From assembly GCA_009783855.1 (NCBI GenBank), contig WRCO01000006.1, positions 1-47,219 on the forward strand: DNA of 47,219 nucleotides, given 5' to 3'. A program made the translations under genes and the position numbers. Below are positions 10,139 to 37,382 of the stretch, one piece after another (within the stretch, counting starts at the first letter, position 1; each line of letters begins with the position of its first letter). The notes under the pieces are model-generated. The model made no database searches. It was not told the DNA's origin and was given only the letters and a program-made list of their open reading frames with translations. The DNA comes from Alphaproteobacteria bacterium. Lineage in GTDB: Bacteria; Pseudomonadota; Alphaproteobacteria; Rs-D84.

Positions 10139-10160
10139 TTTTTTGCGACCGTAAAAATTA

Positions 10161-10279
10161 GAGCATGGATAAGAGAGCATAGAGCATAAATAATGGAGAG
10201 CGAACAAATGTTAAGAATAAAAAAACAATTTTCCACGCCACTCAAAGCATCTATGCTCTGTGCTCTATGCTCCATGCTC
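10161..10279. repeat. word-repeat inverted repeat flanking the secretin start
   Basis: Arm 1 (10161-10187) and arm 2 (10253-10279) are both 27 bases, made of GAGCAT and ATGCTC words. They are complementary at 23 of 27 positions without a gap. The 65-base loop contains the GGAG and the ATG of the secretin gene; arm 2 encodes the hydrophobic core of its signal peptide. If both arms are in the mRNA the stem would enclose the start site. Confidence 0.85.
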
Positions 10280-11845
10280 TTGCTTGCGTCGTGCGCGAAA
10301 AAGGAATCGCAACAGGTCGCGGGTTCGGTGGACCATGATTTTATAAACGCATTCGACGCATTCCAGATGTCAAGACAGCCGACGGCAAGGGCGTCAAACG
10401 ACACGGTCGCGATATCTGATGCCGTATGGCTTGGAAACCGGTCCATTGTTCTTGAGCATCGCAATCCGCTTCCGTCGGAATTCGAAACCGACACCGGAAT
10501 CACAATCGTGTTGAATACGCCCGTATCGCTTCAGGCGATTGCCAACAACATACACTCTGTCACCGGAATACCCGTGCGCATAGACAATCAGATAAACTCC
10601 GAAAAAACGCGCCGGAATATAAGCGTCGCATATACGGGAAGCCTTTCCGGATTGCTGTCGCAGATTGCGACCGATTTGGATTTGCTGTGGTTCTATGACA
10701 GAAACGCAATCGTGTTCTTTGAAACGGAAACGCGGACGTACTCTCTCTATGCGCTTGGCACCGACATAAGTTTTCAATCGCGGATACACACCGACGACGG
10801 AAACTCCGTCGCGCTTGAATCCAATATGCGCGAATGGGAAGAAGTAGAGAGAACAATCGCAAGCATGATAGGCAACAGCGACAGCGCCGATTTTACCGTG
10901 TCGCGTTCGCTTGGCACCATCACGGTCACCGCGCCGCCGTCCGTGCAATCGCGCGTTTCCGAATACATTGCCCGCCAGAATCAAAGATTATCACAGCTTA
11001 TCGCCATCGACGTAAAAGTTTTACAGGTTTCGATTACGAACAACACGGCGTTCGGACTTAACCTTGGCGCCGCGATTAATACCGCGTCGGGGCTTAATCT
11101 TGTCGCGAACCCAAGAAACAACCTTGTGACCAACGAAGCGACCGGAATGAATGTCGCGGTTCTTGCCGGGCTTACATCCGTCGGGCCGGGCATTGGCGGC
11201 GGCAATGTCACCGCGGGGCCCGGCGCGGACGCCATAAACGCGGGGCCGCTTGGTCCGATTGCGGGGTCCACCGCGCTTATCCAGGCTTTGGCGAAACAGG
11301 GCAAGATATCGCTTGTGACGAATGTCGGCGTTACGACCCGGAACAACCGCATCGCGCCGATTTCGAATACAAGGACGGTCGGATACATCAAACGGTTTGA
11401 ATCGCGCAACTTTACGACCGTGGAATCGTCAACCGTGGACCAGGATAACCTTGAAACCGGATTCTCGATGCAGTTGTTGCCGAATGTTTTGGAAAACGGC
11501 CGGATATTGCTGTTGTTCAAGATGTCGATTCGCGAATTGCTCTCCATGCGCAACGAAACAATCGGCGCGGTGACATTGCAATTGCCCGAAGTTGAAGAGC
11601 GTTCATTTATGCAGGAAGTAATCATGGAATCGGGTCAGATGCTTGTGCTGTCCGGGTTTGAACGTCAACAGAACAACGACGCGCGTTACGGACTTGGCCG
11701 GGCGGACTTTATGGCGCTTGGCGGGTCGCGTGAAACGCTTGCCACGCGCGACGTGCTTGTCGTGATGCTTACGCCGCAAGTATTGGTGTCGCCGATGGAT
11801 GCGGAGAGGCAGATACAACAGCACTGGGGCGCCCCGTTGCATTAA
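10208..11845 (+). CDS. PilN-type outer-membrane secretin lipoprotein
   Basis: Forms the multimeric outer-membrane channel of a type IVb pilus or related secretion machine. The 545-residue product has a lipoprotein signal with lipobox LLAS-C (Cys 29). N-domain folds follow (about 90-250). The C-terminal secretin domain includes VEERSFMQEVIMESGQMLVL and ends with the beta-rich VLVVMLTPQVL. Size and lipidation match the PilN branch. The ATG at 10208 is chosen because GGAG lies 9 bases upstream. The gene follows the TcpQ-like gene in the same direction, 69 bases on, with the inverted repeat around its start. A terminator follows. Confidence 0.85.
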   Translation: MLRIKKQFSTPLKASMLCALCSMLLLASCAKKESQQVAGSVDHDFINAFDAFQMSRQPTARASNDTVAISDAVWLGNRSIVLEHRNPLPSEFETDTGITIVLNTPVSLQAIANNIHSVTGIPVRIDNQINSEKTRRNISVAYTGSLSGLLSQIATDLDLLWFYDRNAIVFFETETRTYSLYALGTDISFQSRIHTDDGNSVALESNMREWEEVERTIASMIGNSDSADFTVSRSLGTITVTAPPSVQSRVSEYIARQNQRLSQLIAIDVKVLQVSITNNTAFGLNLGAAINTASGLNLVANPRNNLVTNEATGMNVAVLAGLTSVGPGIGGGNVTAGPGADAINAGPLGPIAGSTALIQALAKQGKISLVTNVGVTTRNNRIAPISNTRTVGYIKRFESRNFTTVESSTVDQDNLETGFSMQLLPNVLENGRILLLFKMSIRELLSMRNETIGAVTLQLPEVEERSFMQEVIMESGQMLVLSGFERQQNNDARYGLGRADFMALGGSRETLATRDVLVVMLTPQVLVSPMDAERQIQQHWGAPLH

Positions 11846-15532: not shown

Positions 15533-15544
15533 CGGAGAGTGGTC

Positions 15545-18500
15545 TTGAAAAAAGCAATCCTTTTGTTCGTGGTTGTTGTCGGCTTTGTTGCCGGCGGTTC
15601 GACGTCCGCTTATGCTTGTGTTAATAATTCCGATTGTGGGCAATTCCAAATTTGTGATCGCGGTTGTTGTGCGGTCGGCAGCCAATGCGGCTGTGCCGCA
15701 GGCCAACACCCTTCCATGCTAATGCAGGATTGTCGCCACCCCTTATCATGTAGTCTTTGCCCTGCCAGACCTGCCAATACATCGTGGTCCAATCCCGGAT
15801 GCAATTGCAATTGGCACTGTAATCCCGGATTCGTGTTGGATCCGTTCGGGATGGGATGCGTCGCGGCGGGATGTCCCGCGAACCAATATATGTCGGGCGG
15901 ACGTTGTGAGAACTGTCCCGCCGGATATACAAGCGCCGCCGGCTCTACCCAATTAAGTGAGTGCAGGATAAGCTGTGCCGCGGGAACGCGTGTTACGACC
16001 GCATTAGGTCAATGCGTCGGCATACCCGCAAACAGCGGCGTATACAGTATCGCGCACACGGTCAACGCCGGGAACGTATCGGGCAGTTGCCGCCAGACAG
16101 GAGCAAATTGCCATGTGATGAATTGTCCCGATGGCTATCCGAACACGCCCGCGAATGCCAGTGCGGCATCGTCGTGTTTTGTAACCTGTTCCGCGAATAC
16201 CCGCGTTGCGTCATCCGGCGCCGCGTGCACCGCATGTCCGGCGAACCACACCCTTGCACAGCATAATGTCAATTTCGGCTCCACATCCGCCGCATGCGTC
16301 ATGCAAAGCTGTTCGGCCAATTGGTACTTGTTAAATGGTGAATGCACGTATTGTCCCGATGGATTTACAAGCCCCGCCGGATCGGTTGGACTTACCAGTT
16401 GTACCAGACCATGTAACACGAACGACGTCACGGGTTCATCATCGGTGACCGGAACGCTTACATGCACAGCGCAGATAAGTCGCAGTTGTAGCGCGACCAG
16501 CGGGACATGCACCGCGACAGGTTGCGTTTCCGGCCGATTCCTTTCCGGCGGCGCATGTCCCGTGTGTCAATGCGATACAAGCCAGCTCTGTACACTAAAC
16601 TGTACTCAGCAACCTTGTCCTGCGAACGCGACTTGCACTCATGGCTCTCAAACCGGCAACGGCATCCGGACCCGCCAGAACACATGTTCCGGCGGTGCGA
16701 CAAGCAATTGCCCGGCATGGGGCGATTGTACCGGCACGCCGCCGCAATGTTCCATCACCATAACCTGTAACGCCGGCCGCTTTTGGAACGGCACAAGTTG
16801 CGAGGCGTGTCCGTCCGGATTTCCGAACTCTGTCGCCGGCGCAACCGCGCGGACACAATGCTTCAGCAATACGAAATCCCGCGCATGGACCGGAAGCCAG
16901 ACGGAATCCGCCCGCCCGGTTGGCGCGGCTTCGTGCTCCGCCGGAACCTGTTCGCATCCGGCGTGCGATTACGTTGCTTATTCCAATTCCGCCGGTACCG
17001 GCGACGGAACCGTACGAAGCGGATGCTCTACCAATAATGCCAATTGCGCCAGGCCATTCACGTCGTGTGTTTGCAACGCGAACTGGTATGCTGTTGCCGG
17101 ACCCACTTGGTGCACCGGCTGTCCGTCAACTCATCCGTCGTCTGCACAAGGAAGCACCGCGCAGAGTCAATGCTTCACGTCATGCTCTGTCGCGTGTTCT
17201 TGTCCGGCTTGGAACTCCTCGAATTGTCCGGCGGGAAGTTCTTGTACCTGTAACACCACTTCTAATCCCGCGTCGGGTCAGCGGTTCCATCCGAATACAT
17301 CCGGATGCAGCGTCGCCGCGAATACTTGCAATACATCTACGGCCGCTTGCGCGCCCGGCACAAATGCCGCCGCAGGCGTCGCGAACTGTACCAATTGTTC
17401 CGCCGGCGCGACCGATTGCGGGTGCGGCGCGAACGGCGAAGCGAACGGAAGCGGCGGATGCCGCGCACGTGCGAATTCGTTCGGAAGCGGCACAAGCTTC
17501 CAGGCATGTCCGTCCGGATTCCCGAACTCTGTTGCCGGCGCCACGGCGATAACAAGCTGTTTCAGTAATACCAAATCCCGCGCATGGACCGGGTCGCAGA
17601 CGGCGTGCAGTCTTACCTCGTGCTCTGCGAATCAATATTCGACCGGGTGCGCCGCGTGTTCCATTGCCGCGTGTAATTATGTTGCCTATTCAAATTCTGC
17701 GGGAACCGGCGACGGTACCGTGCGAAGCGGATGTTCGACCAATAACGCCGCGTGTCAGCAGACAACGAACTGTACCGGTTGTCCGTCAAGTCACCCAAGT
17801 TCTTCTGCCGGAAGCACCGCGCAGAGTCAATGCTGGGCCGCGTGCACCACCGCGTGTTCTTGTCCGGCTTGGAATACAACGAACTGTACCAATTGCAATT
17901 CATGCGCGTGCAACACCGGCTCTAACCCCGCATCGGGTCAGCGGTTCCATCCGAATACATCCGGGTGCAGCGCCGCCGCAAATACTTGCGGCGTGACATT
18001 AACGCCGTGCAGCGCGGGACAAGTTTCCGCCGCAGGAACCGCAGCGTGCAGCAATGTCGCCGCGGGCGGCACGACTACTTGCGGATGCGGCGCGAACGGC
18101 GAAGCGAACGGAAGCGGCGGATGCCGCGCGCGCGCGGGTTCGTTCGGAAGCGGCACAAGCTTCCAATCATGCCCGTCAACCCATCCGAATTCACCCGCCG
18201 GAACCACCGCGCAAAGCGGATGCTTCAGCAATACTTTATCGCGCGCATGGACCGGGTCGCAGACCGCGTGTTCGGGGCCCACGGGCTCTGTGTCGCATAC
18301 TTGCAACAGCTGTTCGAATCCGGCATGTAATTTTACAGAATTCCACGGCGGTGCGCATCGCGACGGATGTTCAAGCAACAGTGCCGCGTGCCAGCAGACT
18401 TTGAACACATTCGTATGCTCTGCCAATCGTTTTCAAAGCGGAAACAGCTGTGCCGGATGTCCGACCGGGCACCCGAATTCCGCCCAGGGAAGCACCGCGC

Positions 18501-21500
18501 AGAGCCAATGTTTCAGCAATACATTGTCAAGACCATGGACCGGGTCGCAGACCGCGTGTTCGGGCCCCGCGAACAGCGCTTCGCGAACTTGCAATTCTTG
18601 TTCCAATCCTGCGTGTAATTTTACGGAATGGCAAAACGGTACTCATCGCGACGGATGTTCAAGCAACAGTGCCGCGTGCCAACAAACAGTCGCAACATTC
18701 GTGTGCAGCGCGAACTTTTTCGCAAGCGGAAGCAGTTGCACCGCCTGTCCGTCAAGCCATCCGACGTCCGCACAGGGAAGCACCGCGCAAAGCCAGTGTA
18801 CCGCATCTTGCGCCGCGGCCGCGACCGGAACCAACGGAACCATAACCCGCGTTGCGGCGAATGTAAATCACCCGACGACTTGTACTTATACAAAGACGTG
18901 CAATAATGGGTTCCACAGCACGGCGCACGGCGTGACCGACGGAACGAATTCATTAAATTGCGCGTCGTGTACGAATACTGCGGACAATGCCGCGACGCGT
19001 ACTTGGAACAGCGGCTCGACAAGTGCGACCGGATGCACCAAAACCATCACGTGTCCCGCGGGACGCCAGGTAAGCGGAACCCAAGGAACCGCAACGGTGA
19101 CTTGCGCGGCGTGCAGCGCAGGCACGCAATGCGGATGCCCGGCCGGTCAGGAAGCAAACGGTACCGGCGGCTGTCGAAACTGTACGGCCGGAGCTGCGTG
19201 CGGATGCGGCACGAACGCCGCCGCGAATGGAAGCGGCGGATGCCGATGCAATGCCAACTTTTCTGGTAACGGAACGACATGTACCGCGTGTCCGTCAAGT
19301 CATCCGAATTCACCCGCCGGAAGCACGGCGCAGAGCCAATGTTTCAGCAATACATTATCGCGCCCATGGACCGGGTCGCAGACCGCGTGCAATATGTCGT
19401 GTCCTTCGGGTCAATTTGCGACCGGATGCGCCGCGTGTTCTCATGCCGCGTGTAATTATACGGAATTCCACGGCGGCGCGCATCGCGACGGATGTTCAAG
19501 CAATAACGCCGCGTGTACGCAGACAACCACATGCAGTCCGTGCAATTGTACCACAAGTCAGAATTGCACATTTGCCTGTACGCCGCAAACCTGTCCTGCG
19601 AACGCGACTTGCACTCATGGCACCAACACTTGTTCCGGCACACAGGCGCGCGCCAATACCTGTTCCGGCGGCGCGACAAGCAATTGCCCGAACTGGGGCG
19701 CTTGCACCGGCACCGCGTGCAGTTGCACCATAAACATCACTTGCAACGCCGGAAGATTCTGGAACGGCACAAGTTGCGAAGCTTGCCCGACCGCTTTTCC
19801 GAATTCCGTCGCCGGCGCAACCGCGCGGACACAATGCTTCAGCAATACTTTATCGCGTCCGTGGACGGGAACTCAGACCACGTGCGCCACAAACACTTGT
19901 ACGTCGGGCAATTTCCACAACGGTTGCAACAGCTGTTCGAATCCGGCCTGTAATTACACTGCGTTTTCCAATTCCGCCGGCACGGGCGAGGGCGCATTGC
20001 GCGACGGATGTTCAAGCAACAGCGCGAACTGTACGCAGATGCCGATTTGCTCCGCATGCGGTTGTACCACAAGTCAGCCATGCAGCCGCGACGGCTTTGT
20101 TCAGAATTCCAGTACCCAGGCGCGCGCCAATACCTGTTCCGGCGGCGCGACAAGCAATTGCCCAAACTGGGGCGCTTGTACGGGCGGCACGCCGTGCAAC
20201 TGTACCACAAGTCAGGTCTGTACGCCGACCGGTTGTACCGTTGCCAACGGCACCTGTACATGGAACGCCAATTGCGGCACACAGACGCGCGCGAATACTT
20301 GCACGACCGGACCGACCGCCGGATGTCCGGCTTTTGGCGCATGCTCCAGCACGGGCTGTGGCAGGACGATTACTTGCAGTGCCGGATTCTATCAAAGCGG
20401 TGACGCCTGTGTCGCATGTCCGTCCGGTTCGACCAGTTCCGCGGGTTCTACCGCTATAACGCAATGCTTCCGCGCTTGCAGTCGCGACGGCTTTGTTCAG
20501 GATTCCAGTACACAAAACTGTTCCTCTGGGTCTGGCAGCACTTGCAACACATGGGGAACATGCACTGGCGGTACTGCGTGCAGCTGTACGACAAACCAAA
20601 CTTGCGATGCGGGTAATTGCGGCGCCGGTCAATGGAGAAGTTCCAATGCAGGAACGCAGACACGCGCGAACACTTGTACCACGGGTCCGACCACCGGATG
20701 CCCGGCTTTTGGTACATGTAATCCGACGGCTTCCTGTCAATCATGCGGATGCAGTACAAGTCAGGCTTGCAGTATTTCCGGCTTTGTTCAGAATTCCAGC
20801 ACGCAGTCGCGAACGGATGCATGCAACCCTACAACCGGGGCTTGTACAGGGGCATGGGGTGCTTGTACGGGCGGCACGCCGTGCAACTGTACCACAAGTC
20901 AGAATTGCACATTTGCCTGTACGCCGCAAACCTGTCCTGCGAACGCGACTTGCACTCATGGCACCAACACTTGTTCCGGCACACAGACGCGCGCGAATAC
21001 TTGCACGACCGGCGCGACTACCGGGTGTCCTTCTTTTGGCGCTTGCACCGGCACCGCGTGCAGTTGCACCATAAACATCACTTGCAACGCCGGGTTTTAC
21101 TTAAATGGCGGTGCCTGTGTCGCGTGTCCGTCAAGTCATCCGAACTCTGTCGCGGGGGCAACCGCGCAAAGCCAGTGTTTCAGTAATACATTATCGCGTC
21201 CGTGGACCGGAAGCCAAGTAAACGGCACGCCGCCCGCGAATTCAACTTGCACCACATGGGGAACTTGTTCCCTTGGCGCGTGCAATTATACGGAATTCCA
21301 TGGCGGCGCGCATCGTGACGGATGTACCACCAACAGCGCGAACTGTACACGTCCGTGCAACGGGTTCAGTTGTAACGCCGCCTTTTTCGCAAACGGGTCG
21401 GCGTGCACGGCATGTCCGACCGCTTTCCCGAATTCCGTCGCCGGCGCAACCGCCCGGACACAATGCTTCAGCAATACATTATCGCGTCCATGGACGGGAA

Positions 21501-23800
21501 CACAGACGCCGTGTTCGGGGCCCGCGAACAGCGCGTCGCACACGTGCAACAGTTGTTCAAATCCGGCATGCAATTATACTGCGTTCTCTAATTCCGCCGG
21601 CACGGGCGAGGGCACGTTACGCGATGGATGCGCAACCAACAATGCCGCATGTACCCAGACGGTCGGGCCGTTTACATGTAATGCCAACTTTTTCGCAAGC
21701 GGGTCGTCGTGTACGGCATGTCCGACCGCATATCCGAATTCCGCCCAGGGTTCGACCGCCCGGACACAGTGTTTCAGCAATACATTGTCAAGACCATGGA
21801 CGGGCACGCAGACACCGTGCGTTGCGCCCGCGGGCGCCGCGTCGCATACGTGCAACACGTGTTCAAATCCGGCGTGTAGTTTCACGGTATTTTCCAATGC
21901 GGCGGGTGACGGCGACGGAACGCATCGCGACGGATGTTCGACCAACAATGCCGCGTGCCAGCAGACTTTGAATAATTTCTCGTGCGGCGCCGGGTCTTTC
22001 GCGGATGGCTCTTCCTGTACGACATGCCCGGCCAATTATCCGAATTCTGCCTCCGGCGCAACCGCACGAACACAATGCTTCAGCAATACTTTATCGCGCG
22101 CATGGACCGGGTCGCAGACCGCGTGTTCGGGCCCCGCGAACAGCGCTTCGCACGTGTGCGGCGCCTGTTCGAATCCTGCGTGTAATTATACGGTGTTCTC
22201 CAATGCGGCGGGCAACGGCGACGGAACGCATCGCGACGGATGCGCAACGAATGCCGCCGCTTGCACACAGCCGGTTAATTCTTTTATATGCAGTGCGAAT
22301 TTCTTTGCCAACGGCGCGGCGTGCACGGCATGTCCGACTGGGTTTCCGAATTCTGTTGCCGGCGCCACGGCGCGGACACAATGCTTCAGCAATACATTAT
22401 CGCGTCCATGGACGGGAACACAGACGCCGTGTTCGGGACCCGCGAACAGCGCTTCGCGAACTTGCAATTCATGCTCTCGTTCGGCGTGTAATTATACTGC
22501 GTTCTCTAATTCCGCCGGTACGGGCGAGGGCACGTTACGCGATGGATGCGCAACCAACAATGCCGCATGTACCCAGACGGTCGGACCGTTTACATGTAAT
22601 GCGAATTTCTATGTGAATGGCGCCGCGTGTACGGCATGTCCGTGGAATTCCACGACGGCACAGGGCAATGTTTCGGCGAATTGCGCATGTACGGCGAATT
22701 TTCCGATTGCGGGCGGAACGCTTGCGCTTACCACCGCGAACCAGACTGTTGTCGCGGGTGGAACATGTTTATATCGGCGGACTTGCAACAATGGCAATTG
22801 GCACGCAAGCCATGGCGCGACGAATCTTTCCGCTGCGAATTCATCGACACAGACCACGATGACGGCGGCGTGTGCGGTATGCGACAACCCGCGGCCGGCC
22901 GGCGTTAATTATAGCGGCGCTGCGACGGCCAACCTTTGCCCATGGGCCGCAGTTGTGCCAGAGGGCCAGTTCCTGCGCGTCAGCGATATGACGTTCCAGC
23001 TGTGCCGGTCTGGAGAATCTTGTCCCGGCGGCGCGCTGATAAGCCACGTCACCACCGCAGACACCGGGTACGAGGCATGTCCGTCCGGCACATACCAGTC
23101 CGGAACCGGTGAATCGACGTGTACTTTGTGTCCTTCTGGATTTGACAGCCCGGAAGGTTCCGAAGCGTTGACAGATTGCGCCCGCCCATGCGTCAACGCC
23201 GATGTCCAGTGGGCAAGCGCGGTGACAGGCACGATTTCATGCACGGCGGCAACCGGTACGAATTGCACCGCGACGACAAATACGTGCGTTGCGACCGGCT
23301 GTGTTGACGGCTATAACTTTGAAGGCGGCGTATGCGTGGCGGCAATGTGTGACCCGGGGTATTATATGGAAGGCGGGTTTTGTACCCCATGTTTGGCCGG
23401 AACGTTTAAGTCTGAATCAAGCGACCATGCGTGCACGCCATGCAATGACGGTCAGTGGTCCGGTCTTGGCGCCGAACATTGCACCGCATGCACCAACGCG
23501 CCGACACACGGCCATTACACCGGCGCCGGAACAAACAATAATTGTCCATGGGAATGCGACAACGGATTTGTATACGTGCTTGGCAATTGCGTGTCTATAT
23601 GCGACGGGGTTACGGTTTTGCGGGTCGGCGACCTTGCCGCGCCGCTTACCGCCGAAAGGCATACATCGCCAAGTCTTGCCGTAAGAATCAACGATAATAA
23701 GGTTTGCTATACGCCGCTTGTCGACGGACAGGCTTCCGGCGCGCTTAATGTCCGGTTGCCCGGAAACCAGGTTTTCCACGCACCCGTCCGCGCGCAATAA
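15545..23800 (+). CDS. giant secreted cysteine-rich repeat protein (about 2751 aa)
   Basis: A signal peptide (1-24, cut after SAYA) is followed by about 2700 residues of Cys/Asn/Ser/Thr/Gly-rich repeats with roughly one Cys in ten, so it should be exported and disulfide-bonded. Two module types alternate. One, about 100 residues, has 11 copies starting CFSNT(L/K)SR(P/A)WTG and including DGC(S/A)(T/S)NxAxC. The other is shorter and resembles thrombospondin-like units (CSGGATSNCPNWGACTG). Each boundary has a TNFR/GCC-like ACP(S/T)..PNS motif. The tail carries TSPSLAVR, shared with the 43114 product. Start: a TTG at 15545 with GGAG seven bases upstream is preferred over GTG 15539, which is too close to the Shine-Dalgarno. 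No membrane anchor is visible. Adhesin or coat are guesses. Confidence 0.88.
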   Translation: MKKAILLFVVVVGFVAGGSTSAYACVNNSDCGQFQICDRGCCAVGSQCGCAAGQHPSMLMQDCRHPLSCSLCPARPANTSWSNPGCNCNWHCNPGFVLDPFGMGCVAAGCPANQYMSGGRCENCPAGYTSAAGSTQLSECRISCAAGTRVTTALGQCVGIPANSGVYSIAHTVNAGNVSGSCRQTGANCHVMNCPDGYPNTPANASAASSCFVTCSANTRVASSGAACTACPANHTLAQHNVNFGSTSAACVMQSCSANWYLLNGECTYCPDGFTSPAGSVGLTSCTRPCNTNDVTGSSSVTGTLTCTAQISRSCSATSGTCTATGCVSGRFLSGGACPVCQCDTSQLCTLNCTQQPCPANATCTHGSQTGNGIRTRQNTCSGGATSNCPAWGDCTGTPPQCSITITCNAGRFWNGTSCEACPSGFPNSVAGATARTQCFSNTKSRAWTGSQTESARPVGAASCSAGTCSHPACDYVAYSNSAGTGDGTVRSGCSTNNANCARPFTSCVCNANWYAVAGPTWCTGCPSTHPSSAQGSTAQSQCFTSCSVACSCPAWNSSNCPAGSSCTCNTTSNPASGQRFHPNTSGCSVAANTCNTSTAACAPGTNAAAGVANCTNCSAGATDCGCGANGEANGSGGCRARANSFGSGTSFQACPSGFPNSVAGATAITSCFSNTKSRAWTGSQTACSLTSCSANQYSTGCAACSIAACNYVAYSNSAGTGDGTVRSGCSTNNAACQQTTNCTGCPSSHPSSSAGSTAQSQCWAACTTACSCPAWNTTNCTNCNSCACNTGSNPASGQRFHPNTSGCSAAANTCGVTLTPCSAGQVSAAGTAACSNVAAGGTTTCGCGANGEANGSGGCRARAGSFGSGTSFQSCPSTHPNSPAGTTAQSGCFSNTLSRAWTGSQTACSGPTGSVSHTCNSCSNPACNFTEFHGGAHRDGCSSNSAACQQTLNTFVCSANRFQSGNSCAGCPTGHPNSAQGSTAQSQCFSNTLSRPWTGSQTACSGPANSASRTCNSCSNPACNFTEWQNGTHRDGCSSNSAACQQTVATFVCSANFFASGSSCTACPSSHPTSAQGSTAQSQCTASCAAAATGTNGTITRVAANVNHPTTCTYTKTCNNGFHSTAHGVTDGTNSLNCASCTNTADNAATRTWNSGSTSATGCTKTITCPAGRQVSGTQGTATVTCAACSAGTQCGCPAGQEANGTGGCRNCTAGAACGCGTNAAANGSGGCRCNANFSGNGTTCTACPSSHPNSPAGSTAQSQCFSNTLSRPWTGSQTACNMSCPSGQFATGCAACSHAACNYTEFHGGAHRDGCSSNNAACTQTTTCSPCNCTTSQNCTFACTPQTCPANATCTHGTNTCSGTQARANTCSGGATSNCPNWGACTGTACSCTINITCNAGRFWNGTSCEACPTAFPNSVAGATARTQCFSNTLSRPWTGTQTTCATNTCTSGNFHNGCNSCSNPACNYTAFSNSAGTGEGALRDGCSSNSANCTQMPICSACGCTTSQPCSRDGFVQNSSTQARANTCSGGATSNCPNWGACTGGTPCNCTTSQVCTPTGCTVANGTCTWNANCGTQTRANTCTTGPTAGCPAFGACSSTGCGRTITCSAGFYQSGDACVACPSGSTSSAGSTAITQCFRACSRDGFVQDSSTQNCSSGSGSTCNTWGTCTGGTACSCTTNQTCDAGNCGAGQWRSSNAGTQTRANTCTTGPTTGCPAFGTCNPTASCQSCGCSTSQACSISGFVQNSSTQSRTDACNPTTGACTGAWGACTGGTPCNCTTSQNCTFACTPQTCPANATCTHGTNTCSGTQTRANTCTTGATTGCPSFGACTGTACSCTINITCNAGFYLNGGACVACPSSHPNSVAGATAQSQCFSNTLSRPWTGSQVNGTPPANSTCTTWGTCSLGACNYTEFHGGAHRDGCTTNSANCTRPCNGFSCNAAFFANGSACTACPTAFPNSVAGATARTQCFSNTLSRPWTGTQTPCSGPANSASHTCNSCSNPACNYTAFSNSAGTGEGTLRDGCATNNAACTQTVGPFTCNANFFASGSSCTACPTAYPNSAQGSTARTQCFSNTLSRPWTGTQTPCVAPAGAASHTCNTCSNPACSFTVFSNAAGDGDGTHRDGCSTNNAACQQTLNNFSCGAGSFADGSSCTTCPANYPNSASGATARTQCFSNTLSRAWTGSQTACSGPANSASHVCGACSNPACNYTVFSNAAGNGDGTHRDGCATNAAACTQPVNSFICSANFFANGAACTACPTGFPNSVAGATARTQCFSNTLSRPWTGTQTPCSGPANSASRTCNSCSRSACNYTAFSNSAGTGEGTLRDGCATNNAACTQTVGPFTCNANFYVNGAACTACPWNSTTAQGNVSANCACTANFPIAGGTLALTTANQTVVAGGTCLYRRTCNNGNWHASHGATNLSAANSSTQTTMTAACAVCDNPRPAGVNYSGAATANLCPWAAVVPEGQFLRVSDMTFQLCRSGESCPGGALISHVTTADTGYEACPSGTYQSGTGESTCTLCPSGFDSPEGSEALTDCARPCVNADVQWASAVTGTISCTAATGTNCTATTNTCVATGCVDGYNFEGGVCVAAMCDPGYYMEGGFCTPCLAGTFKSESSDHACTPCNDGQWSGLGAEHCTACTNAPTHGHYTGAGTNNNCPWECDNGFVYVLGNCVSICDGVTVLRVGDLAAPLTAERHTSPSLAVRINDNKVCYTPLVDGQASGALNVRLPGNQVFHAPVRAQ
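19547..19645 (+). repeat. 99-bp exact repeat, copy 1
   Basis: Identical over 99 bases to 20888-20986, inside the giant gene. It encodes a CTTSQNCTFACTPQTCPANA-type module. Exact identity at DNA level points to recent duplication or gene conversion. Confidence 0.9.
20888..20986 (+). repeat. 99-bp exact repeat, copy 2
   Basis: Second copy of the 99-base block at 19547-19645, in the same orientation and frame. Confidence 0.9.
21176..22660 (+). repeat. tandem array of about 300-bp units in the giant gene
   Basis: Five consecutive CFSNTLSR units begin near 21176, 21463, 21772, 22077 and 22381, a period of about 287-309 bases (96-103 residues). Long stretches are shared between neighbours, so copy number could change by recombination without losing frame. 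Confidence 0.85.
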
Positions 23801-23819: not shown

Positions 23820-24383
23820 ATGAAGGTATTCGTAAACTGTATAACCGCGTTTCGTGTCGCACTGGCGTTCTTAATTATCCCGTGCTTTATATTCGAATTG
23901 TTCGGGATTGCGTTTTTCCTGTTCCTTGTCGCCGCGATTTCTGATTTCTTCGACGGATATCTCGCCCGCAAGTATAATGTGTCGACAAAGCTTGGCGCCG
24001 TCATGGACCATACCGCCGACAAGTTTCTTATCGCAATCGTATCGATATTGATTGCGATATTCTGGCCCGAATGGCCGGTGTCGGTTCCGATAATCCTTAT
24101 GATATGCCGCGATTTGTACGTATCGTCGTTGCGCGAATTCGCCGGCGCGCAGAAGATGGAATTACCGGTCGGCTTCGGAGGCAAGATAAAAACAGTCGCA
24201 CAGATGGTCGCGCTTGGCGGCCTGTTGCTTACCATATGGATAATTCCGTTCGCGGCCGAAGATGTTTCGTACGACCTTTGGACGGCAAGCGCCGTCGCGC
24301 TTTGGGTCGCATTGGGTTTCAGTCTTTTGTCCGCAGGCCTGTATACGAAGGGCTTTGTTAAAAAACTGTTGAAGTCAAAGTAA
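23820..24383 (+). CDS. pgsA: CDP-alcohol phosphatidyltransferase, PgsA-like
   Basis: Membrane enzyme most likely making phosphatidylglycerol-phosphate from CDP-diacylglycerol and glycerol-3-phosphate. The 187-residue product carries the complete family signature D45-G-x2-A-R-x8-G-x3-D-x3-D67 (DGYLARKYN, GAVMDHTAD) and about five membrane helices. Start at ATG 23820 with AAGGGG upstream, 19 bases after the giant gene. Its last 9 bases overlap the end of uvrC on the other strand. PgsA is preferred over phosphatidylserine or cardiolipin synthases on length, without proof. Confidence 0.87.
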   Translation: MKVFVNCITAFRVALAFLIIPCFIFELFGIAFFLFLVAAISDFFDGYLARKYNVSTKLGAVMDHTADKFLIAIVSILIAIFWPEWPVSVPIILMICRDLYVSSLREFAGAQKMELPVGFGGKIKTVAQMVALGGLLLTIWIIPFAAEDVSYDLWTASAVALWVALGFSLLSAGLYTKGFVKKLLKSK

Positions 24384-26171
24384 CGCGTCGCTTTCCGGAT
24401 GGAAATGCAGATATATTTTTTCCGCAAGTGATTTCGATATTCCCGCTGCGCGCGTCAATGCCGACGTGTCCGCGTCCGCAATTCCAGAGGCGGAGCCAAA
24501 ATGACGAAGCAGGGCGCGTCGGCGCGCGGCCCCGATGCCGTCGATTTCATCCAATGCGCTTGCAACCGCGCGTTTGCCGCGCGTTTTTTTATGGAATGTA
24601 ATCGCAAACCGGTGCGCTTCGTCTCTGCCTGCGCGAAGTAATAAAAACAGCCGCGAATCTTTTGGCAGCGATGAATCGACTTTGCCGTCCGGCATTATAA
24701 AACTTTCGTCGCCGTCGCGTTTTTCGCCCTTTGTAATTCCCAAAACCGGAATTTCCAGATTTAATTTTTTCAAAACTCTTTTCGCGGCGTTCCATTGTTG
24801 TCTCCCGCCGTCGACGATTAACAGGGGTCGAACATCTTCGGCCCCGGGGGCGCAAGATACTGCGCCCTTACAATTACCATACCTTCGCGTCAAAAATTCT
24901 TCCATCATTGCCGCATCGTTCCCGGCGCGGGATTCGTCGTGAAGTTTATAATGCCGGTATTCTTTTTTTGCAAACCCTTCCGACCCGAATACAATCATCG
25001 CGCCGACCGGGTTTGTTCCGAACAAATGCGAATTGTCGAACACGTCCGCGCGTTCGATTCGGATGCCAAGCCAGCCTTCCAGTTCCGCAACCGCGTCGCG
25101 CCATTTGATTTCGGCGCGTGCAAAAACTTTCCGATTGGTCGATATTTGGTGAAGAAGTTTTTTAATCTCGACGTCGTCGGGGCGACAGGCGACCGGCAGC
25201 AGGCGATAGGAATCAAGCAACGGTGTCGGGATGTTTGTGATTATCGGAATATTCCGGTTTCCTGTTTCTTGCCGCTTGTCGCTTATCGCCCAGAGAATCG
25301 TTTGTTCCATAATATCCGACGGCGTCATGCCGTCCGTTTGTTTCGGATATATTATCTGGTTCGATATAATCGCCCCGTCGCGAATGCGTTCAATTGCAAT
25401 CGTTGGCCGTTCGGAAAAATCGCCCGCGAAATAGTCCGCCGATTTGCCGCTTTTCCTTCCGCGCGCGGCGGTTTCCGATAATGCGCGAATCTGGTCGCGA
25501 AATTTCGCGGCGCTTTCGAAATCCATATTCGCGCTTGCCGCGTCCATTTGTTTTGACAAGTCTTTCAAGACCGAAGACGTATCGCCCGATAATATCCGGC
25601 GGGCAAGGGCGACACAGTTTCGGTATTCGGATACGGTATCCGAATGCCGTATCCGAATACCGGCCATGCACGGCGCGCTGCACCTTCCGATTTGATAAAG
25701 CAGGCACGGCCGCGTGCGGTTCTTCATATATGAATCGGTGCAAGTGCGGATGCGGCATACTTTCTGGATAAGTTTTAACGATTCGTTAAGCGCCGTCCCG
25801 GACGTATACGGCCCGAAGACGTCGCGTTTCTGATTCGTCTTTCCGCGAAATTTGGACAGGCGGGGAAATTCGCCCGGAACAAGTGCAAGCATCGGATACA
25901 TCTTGTCATCGGACAACAGGATATTGTATTTCGGCCGCTTGTTCTTTATAAAATCGGATTCAAGGATAAGGGCGTCCGCTTCGGTCTTGGTCGTAATAAT
26001 TTCAATCCGCGCGACGTCCCACTGCAATATTTTTTCGTCCGCCGCATGCTGGCGCAGTCTTGCGCTCAAACTCTTTGCCTTGCCCACGTAAAGCAGCGCG
26101 CCAGATTTGTCAAACATCTGGTATACGCCCGGAACTTTGGGAACATTTTCAATAAGCGACTTGAATTGCAT
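24375..26171 (-). CDS. uvrC: UvrABC system protein C with in-frame insertions
   Basis: Nuclease subunit of nucleotide excision repair; it makes both cuts beside the lesion. The 598-residue product has a GIY-YIG domain (VPGVYQMF, LLYVGKAKSLSARLRQH), a UVR motif (ANMDFESAAKFRDQIRAL), the RNase H-like domain (VFDNSHLFGTNPVGAMIVFG, LLIVDGGRQQWN) and terminal helix-hairpin-helix motifs (EIDGIGAARRRALLRHFG). Start at 26171 with AAGG upstream. Three palindromic segments lie in frame near residues 170-184, 294-331 and 435-441, each encoding residues foreign to the family, so the core is close to family length only because other loops are short. It converges on pgsA with a 9-base overlap. Confidence 0.93.
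   Translation of the reverse strand: MQFKSLIENVPKVPGVYQMFDKSGALLYVGKAKSLSARLRQHAADEKILQWDVARIEIITTKTEADALILESDFIKNKRPKYNILLSDDKMYPMLALVPGEFPRLSKFRGKTNQKRDVFGPYTSGTALNESLKLIQKVCRIRTCTDSYMKNRTRPCLLYQIGRCSAPCMAGIRIRHSDTVSEYRNCVALARRILSGDTSSVLKDLSKQMDAASANMDFESAAKFRDQIRALSETAARGRKSGKSADYFAGDFSERPTIAIERIRDGAIISNQIIYPKQTDGMTPSDIMEQTILWAISDKRQETGNRNIPIITNIPTPLLDSYRLLPVACRPDDVEIKKLLHQISTNRKVFARAEIKWRDAVAELEGWLGIRIERADVFDNSHLFGTNPVGAMIVFGSEGFAKKEYRHYKLHDESRAGNDAAMMEEFLTRRYGNCKGAVSCAPGAEDVRPLLIVDGGRQQWNAAKRVLKKLNLEIPVLGITKGEKRDGDESFIMPDGKVDSSLPKDSRLFLLLRAGRDEAHRFAITFHKKTRGKRAVASALDEIDGIGAARRRALLRHFGSASGIADADTSALTRAAGISKSLAEKIYLHFHPESDALL
24848..24867. repeat. REP-like palindrome inserted in uvrC
   Basis: GGGCGCAAGATACTGCGCCC differs by one base from the intergenic copy at 15322-15341. 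In uvrC it helps encode GNCKGAVSCAPGAED between the RNase H-like motifs. Confidence 0.85.
25180..25291. repeat. word-repeat inverted repeat inside uvrC
   Basis: Arms 25180-25210 and 25261-25291 (31 bases each, words of the GGCGACA type) are complementary at 22 of 31 positions without a gap, with a 50-base loop. They are translated in frame as residues about 294-331. Confidence 0.75.
25621..25662. repeat. perfect 16-bp inverted repeat inside uvrC
   Basis: CGGTATTCGGATACGG (25621-25636) is the exact reverse complement of 25647-25662; the 10-base loop repeats part of the arm word. In frame it encodes the RIRHSDTVSEYR stretch right after the conserved CSAPC. Confidence 0.95.
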
Positions 26172-26229: not shown

Positions 26230-26742
26230 ATGAAAATGCTACTCACAGGCCGCAGGCCGCGAACCGCAAGCCGCGAACAATCCGGCCGCTCGATGATAGA
26301 AATGCTTGGCGTGCTTGCCATTATGGGCGTCATAACCGTCGCCGCAATCGGCCTTATAACATCCGCCATGCGAAGCATGCATCGAAGCAATGTCCAAGAC
26401 CACGTCGCCCAAATCGTCAACGAAGTGCGCGCCATATACGGCGAATACGACGATTATTCCATGCTGGATAACGCAACGGTATTCGCGTCGATGCGCGGCA
26501 TGTCGTCAAGGAACCCTTATGGCGGCGAATATGCGATTTCCGTGCACCCGCTTGACGCGCGTCAATTCGTGCTTGCCATAACCGGACTTTCCCGTTCCGA
26601 CTGTTTATTCTTCCGGACAAGGGCGTGGACCGATTCGGTCGGATTCCAGACGTCCGACGGAAGGGTCAGCGGCGCCGAAGCCGACCCGTTTGATTGCGGT
26701 GCGACCGACGGAAGGAATATCATAAGGATAATCTTTAATTAG
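26230..26742 (+). CDS. type IV prepilin-like protein
   Basis: Pilin or pseudopilin. The class III signal has a basic leader (TGRRPRTASREQSG), a predicted prepilin-peptidase cut G19/R20 and Glu at mature position 5 (RSMIE). A hydrophobic N-terminal helix follows (MLGVLAIMGVITVAAIGLI), then a globular domain with a Cys pair near the end. ATG 26230 has AAAGGA upstream; a start at 26200 is open but less likely. The leader is encoded by short repeated words (GGCCGC, AACCGC, AAGCCGC). It stands alone between uvrC and the pseudouridine synthase, away from the secretin at 10.2 kb. Confidence 0.85.
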   Translation: MKMLLTGRRPRTASREQSGRSMIEMLGVLAIMGVITVAAIGLITSAMRSMHRSNVQDHVAQIVNEVRAIYGEYDDYSMLDNATVFASMRGMSSRNPYGGEYAISVHPLDARQFVLAITGLSRSDCLFFRTRAWTDSVGFQTSDGRVSGAEADPFDCGATDGRNIIRIIFN

Positions 26743-33610: not shown

Positions 33611-33648
33611 TAGTGTTTTTTCTTGAATTCATCTGTTTTGTGCGTTAT

Positions 33649-33768
33649 CGTGCTGGTGACTGGTGCTGGTGACTTGTGGTTCGGTTGTCGCCAAAGCACC
33701 GCCCATTATTTCTGGCAGTGGTTCGAAATATAGCAAACCACGAACTGCCGGCACGAACCACCAGCACG
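33649..33768. repeat. word-repeat inverted repeat in the efp leader
   Basis: Arms 33649-33682 and 33735-33768 (34 bases, words GTGCTGGTGAC and relatives) pair at 24 of 34 positions without gaps, the outer 10 perfectly (CGTGCTGGTG / CACCAGCACG). They end 10 bases before the efp ATG; GAGG is at the right edge. Confidence 0.85.
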
Positions 33769-33778
33769 AGGTAAAAAA

Positions 33779-37226: not shown

Positions 37227-37382
37227 AAGGGCATAGGGCATAAGGCATATGGCATAAAAAGTGAGGCGCAAAACTTGCAATTTTGGTTTTCAGCGTATAA
37301 TATTCCCGTGTTAAAAAAGGAAAGTTCATGTTCAGGAAATTTTTGTTCGCCCTATGCCTTGTGCCTTGTGCCCTATGCCTTG
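37227..37382. repeat. word-repeat inverted repeat flanking the tolB start
   Basis: Arm 1 (37227-37256, words GGGCATA/AGGCATA) and arm 2 (37353-37382, words TATGCC) are complementary at 25 of 30 positions without gaps. Arm 2 encodes the TolB signal-peptide core. Between them lie a -10 (TATAAT, 37296-37301), an AAAGGAAAG and the ATG; if that promoter is used, arm 1 is not transcribed. Confidence 0.85.

Follow-up and report, generated by a model that had tools for sequence, protein, structure and literature searches.

We propose that the segment of uvrC under study is probably an old heptad foldback, built of two arrays in inverted orientation, each with about five degenerate 7-nt words, which is kept as a translated passenger in an expendable RNase H-like domain and belongs to a class of repeats found across the bacterial family. 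The window analyzed here is a 47,219-nt stretch of an alphaproteobacterial draft genome (G000), of which about 30% was read directly; the relatives with which it is compared (G001, G003, G004, G005, G007, G012 and others), likewise draft genomes, presumably come from termite guts, judging from their isolate names. The uvrC coding sequence (24375..26171, minus strand) is intact and encodes 598 amino acids when its start is set at MQFKS from alignment with relatives. The protein contains GIY-YIG, UVR, RNase H endonuclease and HhH domains (Pfam matches PF01541, PF02151, PF08459 and PF14520), and these four domains, together with the family-invariant residues in an alignment of which G000 is the first row, identify it as a UvrC.

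The whole foldback is in frame and spans residues 293–332. The count of 22 complementary positions out of 31 given in the preliminary description is exact (25180–25210 against 25261–25291), and the best ungapped extension (25177–25212 against 25259–25294) pairs 26 of 36 positions, which in the mRNA amounts to 26 Watson-Crick and 2 G:U pairs. The left arm, 5' in the mRNA (25259..25294, minus strand; residues 293–305, AISDKRQETGNRN region), reads GGCGATA AGCGACA AGCGGCA AGAAACA GGAA; the right arm, 3' in the mRNA (25177..25212, minus strand; residues 320–332, DSYRLLPVACRPD), reads as its reverse complement GGCGACA GGCGACC GGCAGCA GGCGATA GGAA. Period-7 autocorrelation is 17 in the left arm and 9 in the right, with all remaining periods at 6 or less. 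Both arms encode hydrophilic residues (hydropathy −2.0 and −0.4) and, as had been described, the word-repeat arms are translated as loops: they fall in low-confidence loops of an AlphaFold model, where pLDDT drops below 50 at residues 300–303 of the left arm. With foldbacks scored as matches minus mismatches, the heptad foldback of uvrC scores 16. Five places in the window score at least 16, against 0.15 per 47 kb expected from order-2 Markov copies of the window, and two of the places with such scores lie in uvrC (the heptad foldback and 25621–25662) against 0.00 in 300 synonymous-codon shuffles, so the claimed excess of foldbacks in this gene is real.

Comparison with relatives alters the picture of how this segment is built. 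The preliminary description had named a family alignment in which these residues look ordinary as evidence against its reading; in the alignment the left-flank residues are not ordinary, a heptad array occupying that flank in G000, G001, G003, G004 and G012, whereas G005, G007 and sequences from beyond the family lack it or differ there. The left arm adds a few residues to the loop before strand IPIITNIPTPLL relative to G007 and to other families, in line with the expectation that this place of UvrC varies in length, and the right arm replaces sequence of equal length in arm-less relatives. The 46 nt between the arms (25213..25258, minus strand; residues ~305–320) encode that native UvrC strand, lie outside any repeat and are kept in relatives with and without arms. 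A single insertion is thus not supported, and the 38-residue insert (294–331) first described gives way to two rewritten flanks around a conserved strand.

Heptad-like arms made of other words occupy the same two places of uvrC in G001, G003 and G012; G004 has the left array alone, and G005 and G007 have neither arm. The arms of G001, G003, G004 and G012 cross-pair between species and share GAACCGA-like words, which points to a shared ancestral repeat. The outer words of G000 are private yet mutually matching (Watson-Crick score 16 with itself, 5–8 with others). Judged from these comparisons of sequence, the uvrC heptad foldback appears to be an old, evolving repeat. In G001 the right arm shows no heptad pattern and in G012 only a weak one, and its residues fit a plausible native pattern (SVLGPRLSVRE and SVFGSRFSARE; STVYDSKIMVNE in the arm-less form), so that part of the pairing may be fortuitous.

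The domain that carries the foldback is one the family is losing. The middle segment of UvrC (25101..25451, minus strand; residues 241–357, M1 numbering) is predicted to adopt a beta-beta-beta-alpha-beta-alpha-beta-alpha fold (pLDDT 87, pTM 0.81), and its matches to solved structures, weak ones with a best TM of about 0.56, are consistent with an RNase H-like domain without amounting to proof. It evolves faster than any other part of the protein, with 59% identity to G001 compared with 75–80% elsewhere, and it is wholly deleted in about 20 family genomes (including L021, L023–L026 and L028–L030), in which the UVR and endonuclease parts almost abut. At least three separate losses are needed on a tree built from UvrC (middle segment left out) and RecF, on which the arm carriers G000, G001, G003, G004 and G012 cluster with G005 and G002, internal nodes having 34–71% support. 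In G022, G025 and G028, which belong to one genus, the sole UvrC found is an N-terminal half, in open frames of 250–269 aa.

Two further palindromes lie in uvrC. The one at 25621..25662 (minus strand; residues 170–184) is real, a near-perfect 42-bp palindrome with 19-nt arms (95%), and adds about 8 residues relative to G001. It belongs to a palindromic repeat family of G000, with matches on at least eight other G000 contigs and little beyond that genome. That at 24848..24873 (minus strand; residues ~433–442) is only a 7-bp stem with a 6-nt loop, TTGTAAGGGCGCA-GTATCT-TGCGCCC. It is a TTGTARGGGCG unit, present at three loci of G000 (uvrC and two more), and a relative of the family's TTGTAGGGGCG hairpins, which occur at five places in G001 (contigs 12, 23, 31, 37 and 55), mostly as head-to-head pairs of about 50 bp. 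In a comparison with GTAG-tagged REPs, the copy at 24848 has GTAA and the G001 and G012 copies have GTAG. The uvrC of G012 has such hairpins at both the 24848 and 25621 sites, and unlike inserts occupy the 24848 site in G000, G002, G005, G008 and G012. A reading of the three foldbacks as one phenomenon is not supported, because they are members of three different repeat families. Structure prediction places all three segments in low-confidence AlphaFold loops (residues 437–444, like 300–303, below 50; around 170–180 at about 59). The uvrC gene has thus gathered repeats from three families, each in a loop that tolerates it.

It is unlikely that different heptad elements struck one tolerant place of uvrC independently, leaving elements in the several species that are not orthologous. 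The private outer words of G000, the different inserts that G000 and G012 carry at one place in recF, and the unlike inserts at the 24848 site would all fit such a history, but the shared words and cross-pairing of G001, G003, G004 and G012 do not, nor is a conserved strand between the arms expected from one insertion. Still less probable is a functional mRNA hairpin, involved in pausing or translation regulation and held under selection for RNA structure. A hairpin is predicted from the same two arms in G000, G001, G003 and G012, but its stability exceeds that of synonymous recodings in G000 only (p=0.003, compared with 0.32 in G001, 0.11 in G003 and 0.13 in G012); folding energy being no better than in synonymous recodings in three of four species, we rejected RNA selection on the arms. 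There is also no such hairpin in G004, G005 and G007, and many relatives have lost the entire domain. Ordinary coding sequence with coincidental complementarity is scarcely credible, for although just 22 of 31 positions pair and the right arm is no longer than its counterpart in arm-less relatives, a score of 16 was reached in none of the 300 synonymous shuffles, the period-7 signal is strong and the same arrangement recurs in relatives and elsewhere in the genome.

An old foldback carried as a translated passenger would most likely have no role in UvrC chemistry. We propose that it persists because its words are stop-free in the frame used and encode hydrophilic, flexible-loop residues, in a domain that the family is losing. 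Replication slippage could keep the words alike within an arm, and template switching across the hairpin could keep the arms complementary, so that the word could change in both arms without any change in the strand that separates them. The foldback probably first arrived by copying from another site in the genome; against this dispersal origin, a search of G000 gave no similar copy beyond one 33-nt partial match. A pair of loci, L051:6924 and L044:19485, was considered as orthologous copies in which both arms had undergone parallel T-to-C changes, and was set aside because synteny places them at different loci.

The uvrC element belongs to a class that is abundant in the family. In the stretches sampled from G000, G001, G003, G004, G005 and G012, period-7 arrays number 12–73 per 100 kb, compared with about 0–4 per 100 kb for other periods within 4–11 in the well-sampled sets (period 8 reaches 13 in G012, where 15 kb was sampled), and none were found in the sampled loci of order-mates or other alphaproteobacteria. 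An inverted partner lies within 130 nt of 42 of 69 sampled arrays (1.6% at random positions) and a direct partner of none of the 69. Arms are mostly 28–32 nt long, that is, four words plus a bit. A foldback of this class at 33648..33769 of the window (TCGTGCTGGTGACTGGTGCTGGTG..., no strand assigned) has 34-nt arms and a 54-nt loop, with no open frame across it. The recF gene of G000 contains an in-frame heptad foldback (L044:5440–5541, GHKAYGTGNNEDENALCPMTYAL region) that was gained whole and that other aligned relatives do without, G012 having a different insert at the same place. Heptad runs also occur in pilin-like leader peptides of the SMIEMLG type (window 26244–26280, L059:15376–15405 and L051:7505–7539), where they are hydrophilic in the window and L059. 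Elsewhere in the window, 15539–23800 is an open frame of 2753 residues, rich in cysteine and containing many CPS...GSTAxxQC repeats.

Several candidate causes of heptad growth and spread were considered. Loss of mismatch repair was rejected, the MutS domain being present in nearly all genomes. The hairpin nuclease SbcD gave no match above cut-off in any family member, but it gave none in the remainder of the order either, and its loss therefore does not explain a family-specific heptad pattern. A search for a mobilizer of the RAYT/IS200 type gave no PF01797 match in the drafts of G000, G001, G003 and G004 and one weak match in G012.

More surprising and more novel than the uvrC foldback itself is the place that the commonest words occupy. 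AGAGCAT and AAGGCAT sit at gene starts, where the leader holds the left arm, the loop holds the start codon, and the right arm, read as MLYALCS or LCLMPYA, forms the hydrophobic core of a signal peptide of the Sec or lipoprotein type. In the window, an AGAGCAT/ATGCTCT foldback (10160..10280, plus strand) has its left arm in the leader and ATG 10208 in the loop, its right arm being the lipoprotein signal peptide MLRIKKQFSTPLKASMLCALCSMLLLASC, and an AGGGCAT foldback of the same class (37228..37379, plus strand) has the signal peptide MFRKFLFALCLVPCALCLGPAHA as its right arm. A unit of ~110 nt with AGAGCAT/ATGCTCT arms and a start codon is common to 17 or more genes in G000 and G001 that have no obvious likeness outside it. 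Further AGAGCAT/AAGGCAT signal-peptide foldbacks were seen at L042, L044, L047, L051 and L094–L123. By a crude rule applied to samples, heptads occur in 7 of 95 Sec-like genes of G000 and 5 of 15 of G001 but in 0 of 46 of G003 and G004, and by that rule no other period occurs there in any set.

Individual genes illustrate the same arrangement. Over its first 37 residues, the lytic transglycosylase matches N-termini encoded by other genes of G000; among its orthologues in the family (L124–L141 and L102), 7 of 18 have heptadic signal peptides, with words that differ between genera, and that of G008 (L133) has a complete foldback around the start codon. In the signal peptide of the SurA-like orthologues, the heptad words differ between G000 and G001. 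Mean hydropathy is 1.9 for N-terminal arrays and −0.95 for internal arrays, the classes having been picked by hand. A broader reading, which we advance tentatively as a serious possibility, is that in the heptad foldbacks of this family the two arms evolve together, and that the foldbacks serve as cassettes for expression and export that are copied onto genes for secreted proteins and lipoproteins, while hydrophilic words land in the loops of soluble proteins such as UvrC. The copied unit would consist of the leader arm, the start codon, a basic n-region and a heptad-coded hydrophobic core. Capture by genes should be easy, since a heptad run, whichever frame it is read in, gives the same cyclic repeat of seven residues.

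Coding repeats in repair genes have been described in other bacteria, which makes the uvrC foldback a variant of a known phenomenon and not an unprecedented one. REP palindromes are translated in frame inside uvrA, uvrB, recB, dnaE and other genes, sometimes two per gene (Di Nocera et al. 2013, PMC3733652), and are sometimes found at one site with different repeats (PMC3733652). The 24848 hairpin bears some resemblance to a GTAG-tagged unit of this kind, but no Y1/RAYT transposase was found in G000, and whereas REPs are palindromes of 20–40 bp, the uvrC element is two heptad arrays flanking native sequence. Rickettsia palindromic elements (RPEs) are likewise palindromic repeats that sit in frame within genes unrelated to one another, in a reduced alphaproteobacterial genome (reviewed in PMC10969869), as heptad foldbacks do in uvrC and recF. 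RPE families, however, are conserved sequences of ~150 bp; here the word varies by locus and species while the layout is kept, and the uvrC element, with its one partial match in G000, does not occur as multiple copies of one conserved sequence. The four-unit heptanucleotide elements of Geobacter metallireducens (PMC2700814) and the GGGAATC repeats of Xanthomonas (PMC4692102) resemble ours, as do cyanobacterial STRRs, in being dispersed tandem 7-nt words, often in four units; here the arrays are mostly inverted pairs with widely varied words within one genome. Period-7 tandem arrays dispersed through the genome are STRR-like, but their host is alphaproteobacterial, which by host group sets them apart from cyanobacterial STRRs. 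In the Nostoc tRNA-Leu intron, both sides of the P6b hairpin stem carry degenerate heptads that pair in the RNA and vary in copy number (PMC3488679), but that is a structured intron RNA and uvrC a protein-coding gene. Finally, in one Yersinia case an exported protein owes its signal peptide to a small, dispersed mobile repeat of enterobacteria (Delihas 2007, PMC2759123), whereas in our case a single heptad family provides the signal peptide, and the start codon as well, of at least 17 genes.

Importantly, these findings show a way in which simple repeats become part of proteins. What a word encodes, once translated, appears to set the site at which it survives, hydrophobic words in signal peptides, hydrophilic words in loops and stop-containing words outside genes. 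If the copying of the cassette is confirmed, it would provide a direct route by which genes gain or exchange export signals, with natural replicates across species.
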